DNA from: a virus
Length of the DNA stretch: 36,213 nt
Strand: one strand, 5' to 3'
Virus record (IMG/VR): IMGVR_UViG_3300008448_000289
Location: 1 to 36,213 of that record
The translations under genes were made by a program, and so were the position numbers. Of this stretch, positions 3,796 to 6,198 are shown in pieces. How positions within the stretch are numbered: position 1 is the first letter of the stretch; every line of letters begins with the position of its first letter. The notes below the pieces were generated by a model, which ran no database searches, was not told the origin of the DNA, and saw nothing but the letters and a program-made list of their open reading frames with translations.

Positions 3796-4080
3796 ATGAC
3801 ACCAGAAGGCAAAGTCAAACAGAAGGTCAAGAAGTACTTGACCGAGATGGGTTGTTACTACGCGATGCCCGCCACAGGTGGGTACGGGTTGAGTGGTACG
3901 CCGGACTTTCTTGTGTGTTATCGGGGTGCGTTCGCGGCCATTGAATGTAAGGCCGGTGGGAACAAGCCGACTGCGCTGCAAGAGGCAGCGATGCAAAGGA
4001 TTCGAGATGCGGGCGGACTCGCCCTCGTCATTGATGAGACCAACGTGGATCAACTAAAGGAGTTGTTTGGGTATGAATAA
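3796..4080 (+). CDS. VRR-NUC domain nuclease
   Basis: A 94-residue stand-alone VRR-NUC protein of the PD-(D/E)XK superfamily. The catalytic core is visible: GTPDFL with D37, then IECKAGG with E50 and K52, and a downstream Gln (Q62) in LQEAAMQRI. The N-terminal helix has Glu4 (TPEGKVKQKVKKYL). Stand-alone VRR-NUC proteins are common in phages and are thought to cut branched or recombination-intermediate DNA. No strong ribosome binding site is seen, and the gene starts 17 nt after a terminator, so its promoter is unclear. It is coupled to the DUF3310 gene by an overlap. Confidence 0.9.
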   Translation: MTPEGKVKQKVKKYLTEMGCYYAMPATGGYGLSGTPDFLVCYRGAFAAIECKAGGNKPTALQEAAMQRIRDAGGLALVIDETNVDQLKELFGYE

Positions 4081-4447
4081 GAAGCCGTCGAGAATTTTAG
4101 ATTCGGTGCAGGAGATGAAAGCTGCGCTCGATGCACTCGATGCGTTGGGGAAGCCGAAGAAGTCAAAGGCAATACAAGAGGGCAACGACTTGGCGAATAA
4201 AATTTTCCAAGAGACTTACGACAAATACCACCCCGACCTCGTTAACAACCCGCCGCATTACACAGCGGGGGGGATAGACTTTTTAGATTTTGCTGAAGCG
4301 AAGGGGCTGACCGAGAATGCGTACCTGTTCAACGTCGTGAAATACGTTGTTCGAGCGGGCAAGAAGGTCGGTGTCGATCCGATTCAGGACTTGGAGAAAG
4401 CAGAGTTTTACTTAAAGCGAGAGATCGCACGGAGGAAGCAAGCATGA
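4073..4447 (+). CDS. DUF3310 family protein
   Basis: The C-terminal half matches DUF3310, a small phage domain of unsettled function sometimes annotated as a nucleotide kinase. Signature parts are VNNPPHYT (57-64), the helix VKYVVRAGKK (89-98) and DLEKAEFYLKREI (106-118). Residues 1-50 are a Lys-rich helical extension. The ATG at 4073 is chosen over the in-frame TTG at 4067: AAAGGAG at 4056-4062 serves it, and it overlaps the VRR-NUC stop. No Walker motif is present, so kinase activity is not supported by sequence. Confidence 0.85.
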   Translation: MNKKPSRILDSVQEMKAALDALDALGKPKKSKAIQEGNDLANKIFQETYDKYHPDLVNNPPHYTAGGIDFLDFAEAKGLTENAYLFNVVKYVVRAGKKVGVDPIQDLEKAEFYLKREIARRKQA

Positions 4448-5013
4448 AGACGATTGAGGTAGAGATCCGTGGCAACACGCCACTTTTGATTCACCGCTTT
4501 GCTGAACAGGCAGAGCAAGGCAAAGCCACACGCCGAGTCATGGTGGATAGTTCTAATCCGCGTGATGAAGCAACCAAGAACGCATACGTTGCGTCCGATG
4601 GGACGTATTACTTCAACGCCTTTTCGATCCCGGCGACGATGGCGAATGCGGGCGTGAACCACAAGATGCGTGGGAGCCGCAAGACTTTGAAGTTCATCGT
4701 GCCTTCGGCTGTGCGAGTGGATACCGACACCATCACCATACTGGGTGAGGATGGGAAACCTGCGCCGAACTTCGAGGTGGATGGTCGTCCGGTCACGATC
4801 CCGGCAACGAAGGGTCGAGTGATGCGATACCGCCCTCGCTTTGATAAGTGGGGTGCGAAGTTCCGCTTGATCCTGAACGATCAGATGTTGTCATCCGAGG
4901 ACGCGCATCGCTTGTTAAATGAAGCGGGTGAGAGCATGGGTATCGGTGATTTTAGGCCAGAGAAACGTGGCCCATTCGGAACATTCCGCGTGACAAGTTT
5001 TCGAGAGATTTAA
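4444..5013 (+). CDS. Conserved phage protein with RAMP/Cas7-like hints
   Basis: A 189-residue protein recognisable as a conserved phage type of unknown function. The first strand runs into a turn, EIRGNTPLLIHRF (7-19), and the C-terminus has a glycine-rich stretch GIGDFRPEKRGPFGTFRV (166-183). Both features recall RAMP proteins such as Cas7 (a first strand ending near PLLIH, and a late Gly-rich loop), but this is only pattern resemblance. Basic residues (RGSRK 76-80; KGRVMRYRPRFDKWG 123-137) suit nucleic-acid binding. It overlaps the DUF3310 stop (ATGA) and is the last gene before the pentanucleotide array. Confidence 0.65.
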   Translation: MKTIEVEIRGNTPLLIHRFAEQAEQGKATRRVMVDSSNPRDEATKNAYVASDGTYYFNAFSIPATMANAGVNHKMRGSRKTLKFIVPSAVRVDTDTITILGEDGKPAPNFEVDGRPVTIPATKGRVMRYRPRFDKWGAKFRLILNDQMLSSEDAHRLLNEAGESMGIGDFRPEKRGPFGTFRVTSFREI

Positions 5014-5131
5014 TTTGAGGCAAGGTCTGGCGCGGTCTGGCGAGGTTGGGCAGGGTCTGGCACGGTGCGGTGAGGTAAGGTGAGGTGGGGTGAGGCCGTG
5101 TGAGGTGGGGCTATGTCTGGTGTGGTTTGGC

Positions 5132-5153
5132 TTTTAGGGGGCAAAGAATTTTT
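5132..5153 (+). repeat. Spacer repeat copy 1 within the pentanucleotide array
   Basis: First of three copies identical over 22 nt: four T, AGGGGGCAAAGAA, then at least five T. It separates pentamer blocks A and B. Confidence 0.9.
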
Positions 5154-5258
5154 AAGGCGGGGCAAGGTGAGGTTGGGTCGGGTCGGGTATGGCTCGGCGG
5201 GGTCTGGTGAGGTGAGGTTAGGCGATGCCCGGTGTGGCGAGGCGCGGTAGGGTTTGGT

Positions 5259-5280
5259 TTTTAGGGGGCAAAGAATTTTT
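5259..5280 (+). repeat. Spacer repeat copy 2 within the pentanucleotide array
   Basis: Second copy of the 22-nt core, starting 127 nt after copy 1 and flanked by one extra T on each side. It separates blocks B and C. Confidence 0.9.
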
Positions 5281-5406
5281 TGAGGCGTGGTGCGGTCAGG
5301 CTCGGCGTGGCTCGGTTGGGTGTGGTGAAGTTAGGTAGGGTGGGGTACGGCGTGGCGTGGTGGGGTCGGGCATGGTCGGGTAAGGCGGGGCATGGTGAGG
5401 TTTGGT

Positions 5407-5428
5407 TTTTAGGGGGCAAAGAATTTTT
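5407..5428 (+). repeat. Spacer repeat copy 3 within the pentanucleotide array
   Basis: Third copy of the 22-nt core, starting 148 nt after copy 2. It separates blocks C and D. Block D ends differently, in GGTTTTATTTTTACGAGG, which supplies the ribosome binding site of the gene at 5557. Confidence 0.9.
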
Positions 5429-5556
5429 TAGGTGGGGTCTGGCTATGCGAGGCGTGGTCGGGTTAGGTTAGGTCTGGCAAGGCAGGGTACGGTGTGGCGT
5501 GGCGTGGTCAGGCCGGGTTTGGTTGGGTATGGTTTTATTTTTACGAGGTAACAAGT

Positions 5557-6198
5557 ATGAATTCAGTACAGATTGGACGACAACGATTCAGTAACATCTT
5601 CTGGGGCATCGTGGATGAGCGGGTGGATGACTACCCGTATGAGGTCATTGAGAAGATTGTTGAGGATCAGCAGAAGCTGCGTGCTGATGCAGACTACAAC
5701 ACCGGGTCAGTCCCGTATGACGATGCGGTAGAACTCTATAAGTTGGCGAAGTTCTTTCAGCCGAAGATCATTGCCGAGGTGGGTACGTTCATCGGTGTAT
5801 CGACGACCGTGATGTATGAAGCTTGCAAAGGAGAGGTAGATATCTACACCTGCGATGTGTCGAACGACATCAAGCTCAACCTACCGTTTCATGTCCACCA
5901 ATACCCCAAGACATCATCGACAGATATGTTCAAGGACTTGGCCGATAAGAAGGTCAACGTGGACTTGCTGTATCTGGACGGTCGGTTGCAGCAAGAGGAC
6001 TTCCAGTACTTCCCGAAGATTATTCATGACCAGACTATCTTTGTGTTCGACGACTTTGAAGGCATCGAGAAGGGCGTGGTCAACGCGATGATGTTGGAGG
6101 GTGCGAACCGACTGCTGATCTATCCGCGTGAGAGCAGGAAGACGGCGGTATCACTTCCGTTCACTTTGTTGCATTTTGTGCCGCAGGAGGCCACATGA
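5557..6198 (+). CDS. Class I SAM-dependent methyltransferase-like protein
   Basis: A 213-residue protein with a Rossmann-type methyltransferase core: glycine motif EVGTFIGVST (74-83), acidic residue at the end of strand 2 (CD at 99-100), DLLYLDG (136-142) and FVFDDFEG (162-169). It resembles the Methyltransf_24 type, which acts on small molecules or sugars rather than DNA; the substrate is not visible. The frame is open upstream, but ACGAGGTAAC fixes the ATG at 5557, and upstream residues come from the array. It is followed by an ATGA overlap and by glycosyltransferases, so glycan modification is plausible. Confidence 0.75.
   Translation: MNSVQIGRQRFSNIFWGIVDERVDDYPYEVIEKIVEDQQKLRADADYNTGSVPYDDAVELYKLAKFFQPKIIAEVGTFIGVSTTVMYEACKGEVDIYTCDVSNDIKLNLPFHVHQYPKTSSTDMFKDLADKKVNVDLLYLDGRLQQEDFQYFPKIIHDQTIFVFDDFEGIEKGVVNAMMLEGANRLLIYPRESRKTAVSLPFTLLHFVPQEAT

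Follow-up and report, generated by a model that had tools for sequence, protein, structure and literature searches.

The segment at positions 5019–5535 of the window, i.e., the complete stretch of 36,213 nucleotides analysed here, is very probably the guide array of a phage-encoded Viral Interference Programmable Repeat (VIPR) system, of which the Vipr protein is encoded at 4444–5013. VIPR has been described as a phage-carried, CRISPR-like system (bioRxiv 2026.04.26.720920; PMC13142463; doi 10.64898/2026.04.26.720920), in which the RAMP protein Vipr binds RNAs (vrRNAs) consisting of alternating GGY and NN elements and a 3′ tail; the NN dinucleotides base-pair with DNA and skip one base in between, usually the one at the codon wobble position, and silencing by the complex is directed at competing phages and prophages (doi 10.64898/2026.04.26.720920). 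The published vrRNAs comprise 9–16 repeats in the SUSP1 and P. fulva clades, other types allow other architectures, overlapping guides occur in staggered arrays, and VIPR has been proposed as ancestral to CRISPR (doi 10.64898/2026.04.26.720920). The locus in the window is a member of this already described kind, and the details that are new in it are blocks of 21–25 units, no accessory gene detected with the vap1 model, and the location of the cassette in a variable slot. Furthermore, the locus was recognised from the array alone, independently of the structure-based discovery of VIPR, and this array-first route provides evidence of an association, across phages, between the GGY/NN array and the Vipr family. 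The features of the locus are the following.

4067–4447, + strand: DUF3310 gene of the phage backbone, 5′ edge of the slot, outside VIPR (PF11753, E 1.5e-15)
4444–5013, + strand: vipr gene, predicted 189-aa RAMP-like Vipr protein (phrog_4652, PDB 36pp_D, predicted fold)
5019–5535, + strand: GGYNN array, 90 units in four in-register blocks
5019–5133, + strand: putative guide block 1, 23 GGYNN units, the last one or two extending into the tail
5131–5153, + strand: tail or inter-guide element, copy 1, CTTTTAGGGGGCAAAGAATTTTT; the same element lies in L005 between blocks with unrelated NN
5156–5260, + strand: putative guide block 2, 21 GGYNN units
5258–5280, + strand: tail or inter-guide element, copy 2, repeat of the 23-nt element
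5284–5408, + strand: putative guide block 3, 25 GGYNN units
5406–5428, + strand: tail or inter-guide element, copy 3, repeat of the 23-nt element
5431–5535, + strand: putative guide block 4, 21 GGYNN units, complete tail copy absent
5557–6198, + strand: methyltransferase-like gene of the phage backbone, 3′ edge of the slot, outside VIPR (Methyltransf_24, E 3.2e-5, just below the cut-off)

The original prediction, made from the sequence alone, had described an array of about 90 NNGGY units between two genes of the same strand, and this description was borne out: the array comprises 90 units, and vipr and the methyltransferase-like gene flank it, both on the + strand. Base identity at lag 5 over 5017–5535 is 0.52 vs 0.25 for the whole window and is still high at lags 10, 15, and 20; GG occupancy at period 5, counted in segments of 100 bp, reaches up to 95% in the array vs a mean of 13%, and a scan for period and pattern found the period-5 GGYNN pattern confined to the array and absent from the rest of the window. 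The entropies of the five positions of the unit (0.35, 0.00, 0.95, 1.92, and 1.92 bits) imply an invariant second G, a pyrimidine (C or T) at the third position, and near-random bases at both N, in agreement with the predicted contrast between a held GG(Y) and two nearly free N. None of the 90 units departs from the second G or the pyrimidine, and five have lost the first G and read TG or AG. A simple microsatellite, which had also been doubted at the outset, is ruled out by the N entropy of approximately 1.92 bits and by the contrast with true GGYNN microsatellites of genomes; coding sequence is ruled out by the 5-nt period with stops in the array. The non-coding stretch 3′ of vipr measures 540 nt. 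Within the window, no Rfam match to a known structured RNA and no tRNA were found, and scan scores for terminators or a promoter array were not above those of shuffles. The same array is present in the IMG/VR contigs L004 (99.94% identity over 8.3 kb) and L006 (100% identity over 13.7 kb), and equally designed arrays that differ in content occur in more than 80 further viral contigs as well as in cultured phages, which argues against the assembly artefact that had been considered as a refutation.

The three 23-nt tails had been overlooked in the original prediction. This element (TTTTTAGGGGGCAAAGAATTTTT) is present in three near-identical copies, which divide the array into four guide-sized blocks, and corresponds to the invariant 3′ tail of vrRNAs in that it follows blocks 1–3 and recurs with different guides in contig L005. 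Fold prediction gave a weak hairpin for the tail, with z-scores of 0.05 to 0.95 in a model that leaves pseudoknots outside. The Vipr of L005 is 96% identical to that of the window, and the same tail lies at the same place, accompanied by two blocks with wholly different NN; the intact scaffold and the same tail with new NN point to a recent exchange of guides. Guide content has thus been replaced between near-identical Vipr loci while scaffold and tail remained constant, and the N positions, which the original prediction had described as varying almost freely, would carry the guide information and not be filler. Among 389 guides, most comprise 8–16 units and a minority more than 20; the blocks of 21–25 units in the window may be single long guides or, alternatively, overlapping guides such as those in the staggered arrays of the preprint, and they raise the question of the maximum length of a VIPR guide.

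The excess of these blocks over the published 9–16 units could also be explained by an orphan or decayed array of VIPR origin, in which guides have fused or eroded into the long blocks and are no longer processed into working guide RNAs; the loss of the first G in five units, the missing full tail of the last block, and the target search described below, which yielded no target, are compatible with this explanation. Nevertheless, decay is very improbable, as vipr has an intact, well-conserved reading frame, no unit of the array deviates at the second G or the pyrimidine, L005 combines the same tail and an intact scaffold with new NN content, and the published SUSP1 guides likewise include units without the first G.

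The assignment as a VIPR locus is further supported by the predicted protein. The stop codon of vipr lies 6 nt 5′ of the array, and its ATG overlaps the stop codon of the upstream DUF3310 gene (ATGA). The protein matches phrog_4652 (PHROG 4652, function unknown) with an E of 4e-22, and a Pfam search with the window protein returned no match; phrog_4652 is also matched by all 88 aligned family members. Homology to the Vipr of SUSP1 is indicated by PDB 36pp_D (E 2.4e-7 with the window protein alone) and by PDB 36pp, "SUSP1 Vipr protein" (E 1.1e-42 with the family profile of 88 members). The AlphaFold model (pLDDT 91.2) suggests a RAMP fold of the Cas7/Csm3 type, since the top Foldseek matches are Csm3/Cas7 RAMP subunits (probability 1.00, E about 1e-6), and a glycine-rich GIGDFRPEKRGPFGTF segment precedes the last strand; the protein thus appears as a small, single-RRM RAMP homolog with a G-loop, by which a Vipr is recognised. 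In the tree, it groups with L005, L083, L098, L007, L122, and L049/L070 (99/99 support), apart from SUSP1. The locus is virus-borne, in an IMG/VR virus record with phage genes, and vipr has a long non-coding flank. The nearest neighbours of the array are the DUF3310, methyltransferase-like, sigma-70 region 4, and TPR/glycosyltransferase-like genes.

By analogy with SUSP1, the following mechanism is proposed. The vipr gene (4444–5013) would be expressed as a small RAMP protein with a Cas7/Csm3 fold, and the transcript 3′ of vipr would be cut or ended at the repeated tail to give four guide RNAs. Successive Vipr subunits would then grip the scaffold that the GGY triplets form, and base pairing with DNA would involve the NN dinucleotides in the register NNxNNx..., with the skipped base mostly at the codon wobble position. 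Finally, binding of the complex would silence genes of competitors, be they phages, prophages, or satellites. Transcription, processing, Vipr binding, the skip rule, and the silencing of rivals are all presumed for the window member from the published system.

The linkage between array and protein was assessed across viruses and genomes. IMG/VR was scanned for nine consecutive GGYNN units, which gave at least 120 stretches; nearly all of those listed have near-random N, and many have their own constant separators. When 85,000 genomes of bacteria and archaea were searched for 14 GGYNN units, at least 118 loci were obtained; those listed are almost all true microsatellites, with degenerate N in only six loci. 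Among the loci listed, an iterative HMM seeded with the window protein found homologs at 86 of the 109 viral loci with arrays and at each of the six array-bearing loci from bacteria or archaea, vs none of 112 microsatellite loci that a pattern of this kind had also retrieved and that served as controls. Array and vipr homolog share a strand in 93 of 94 cases, with a median of 33 nt between them; since the array pattern was the sole criterion by which loci were chosen, the linkage is not built in. Cultured phages with arrays beside Vipr homologs include the Escherichia phages wV8 and SUSP1, the Gordonia phages Ecliptus and UmaThurman, Mycobacterium phage Brocalys, and Pseudomonas phage Medea1.

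This linkage also bears on the structural roles proposed in the original prediction, i.e., two-layer G-quadruplexes, a transcription pause array, or a ribosome/anti-Shine-Dalgarno decoy. These are suggested by the GGN3GG spacing and the G-rich sense strand, but they are extremely improbable and also unneeded: none of the three requires an exact 5-nt unit with a fixed Y, repeated 23-nt tails, close linkage to one RAMP family, or blocks in which NN changes while GGY stays constant between near-identical Vipr loci, and RNA folding of two of the three array blocks tested was no better than that of shuffles. A packaging or replication site likewise gains no support. A protein-coating site was rightly among the options originally listed; the array would provide the guide RNAs of the adjacent Vipr.

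Several further loci were noted in the course of these scans. In Listonella phage phiHSIC (L248 3150–3400), a Vipr homolog adjoins a 5-nt array (period-5 score 0.87) with a GCANN-like instead of a GGYNN unit, so protein and unit may have co-diverged. In Gordonia phage Trine (L251 3080–3400) and in L252 (2300–2500), tRNA-like 3′ halves (GGTTCGACTCC...) separate the array blocks, and ARAGORN calls tRNA-??? at L251 3283–3351; these halves could act as signals for the processing of guide RNAs. No Vipr is recognisable at eleven viral array loci with good flanks, including L014, L056, and L080, or beside the 144-unit array of L119 (3096–4308); these represent either orphan arrays or loci of a more distant protein. 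Arrays of 123–248 units in L023, L068, and L126 adjoin a protein with the helicase-type motif VIPTAGGKTPVIA and are possibly helicase-bearing VIPR types. In Escherichia phage wV8 (L246), the depositor-annotated DR_4 repeats (2759–2816 and 4152–4209) sit in array-bearing non-coding regions that flank the vipr gene and its neighbour. The 250-bp alternating GGTTY-GGCCA minisatellite of L120 (5147–5396) fits the array pattern and is a true simple repeat.

The content of the NN positions was compared with codon usage and with candidate targets. For 389 distinct guides pooled, the NN log-likelihood is −13555 for codon positions 1–2, −13688 for 2–3, and −14303 for 3–1, and the corresponding correlations are 0.66, 0.16, and −0.29. 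The best phase per locus is 1–2 in 98 of 121 loci (2–3 in 18, 3–1 in 5), and per guide it is 1–2 in 254, 2–3 in 106, and 3–1 in 29. This preference for codon positions 1–2 is in line with wobble skipping, and the signal could be partly compositional, e.g., through selection against C in a G-rich RNA. Five decoded patterns of 16 bases (8 units), i.e., one for each of blocks 1–4 and a second one from block 3, were searched against 2.9 million viral contigs with all matches rescored over the full guide, and gave only chance-like matches; with viral contigs and exact 16-base cores as its scope, this search could miss a diverged or prophage target. The decoded peptides of blocks 1–3 had no tblastn match in named phages, and when every guide was compared with every fetched locus at skips of 0–3, only the arrays themselves rose above background. 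Decoding of block 2 into a NUMOD4/HNH-like peptide was unsupported by any match.

A TRAP-like autoregulation, in which Vipr binds its own GGY-NN message and controls operon expression without targeting, has to be weighed against the guide reading at this point. TRAP binding sites have an NAG plus NN geometry. The triplet with a 2-nt spacer matches this geometry, and the array occupies the 3′ portion of the vipr transcript unit; however, several tailed blocks per locus with hypervariable NN, arrays 5′ of vipr in other loci, the codon-phase signal, and direct experiments on SUSP1 (doi 10.64898/2026.04.26.720920) speak for guides, so that autoregulation alone is very improbable.

Among known systems, the VIPR of Escherichia phage SUSP1 (type II; PMC13142463) provides the closest described parallel for the guide reading. 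Both are phage-carried and have a RAMP protein of the same family (phrog_4652), same-strand GGY/NN guides that adjoin the gene, and a conserved element repeated after guides; the SUSP1 locus, as read in this analysis, has the layout that the preprint describes. By contrast, pairwise homology between the two Vipr proteins is partial (37% over 65 aa), the blocks comprise 21–25 instead of 9–16 units, and all guides are 3′ of vipr in the window, whereas SUSP1 has one 5′ and three 3′. The tail of the window is unrelated and has no significant predicted fold, whereas that of the SUSP1 clade is structured (pseudoknot). The vap1 gene of SUSP1 is absent from the window; the vap1 model matches 26 loci, none of them in the window or its Vipr clade. 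Since types with different architectures are provided for in the preprint, the block length separates the window from the SUSP1/P. fulva clade and not from VIPR. Class 1 CRISPR RAMPs (Cas7/Csm3) resemble Vipr in predicted fold and in that repeating subunits bind guide RNA with periodically interrupted pairing, whereas the guide in the window is a pentanucleotide code instead of a repeat-spacer unit, with no CRISPR array in the window and no cas genes among the nearest neighbours of the array.

The slot of the cassette was compared in 26 contigs retrieved through the methyltransferase gene 3′ of the array, and two of these contigs are the window phage itself. Neither vipr nor array is present within the stretch fetched in 22 of the 26 contigs, i.e., 22 of the 24 relatives with the methyltransferase-like gene lack VIPR, and the DUF3310 gene is kept in such relatives. 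The absence of the array from related phages had been named as a refutation; it is true of most relatives, and is explained by an optional vipr-array cassette. L303, L307, and L308 show the empty site, at which an ATGA overlap joins the DUF3310 gene directly to the methyltransferase gene, and the ATGA overlap at the start of the window vipr is the same type of junction. The two remaining relatives, L293 and L294 (the same contig as L044), have a different VIPR (L044 6738–8160) at the same slot (DUF3310 to methyltransferase gene) of the same backbone, with most neighbouring genes 92–98% identical. Their Vipr is about 18–22% identical to that of the window, the array lies 5′ of vipr with guides of approximately 7–10 units and GGCATCGCA-type 9-mer separators, and an additional gene lies downstream. 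The vipr gene and array are thus an optional, exchangeable cassette at a fixed phage slot, and the locus documents exchange on two levels, of the guides alone while scaffold and tail stay constant, and of the entire cassette. Tentatively, and with somewhat more doubt than confidence, the window locus may represent a VIPR subtype with single very long guides (21–25 dinucleotides, footprint of approximately 60–75 bp) and no accessory protein, which is swapped as a vipr-plus-array cassette at one fixed slot where other members of the lineage have an unrelated VIPR, other genes, or nothing. In relatives (L295–L316), the DUF3310-to-methyltransferase slot is occupied by different small genes (of 114, 271, and 269 aa), which makes it a general cargo site.
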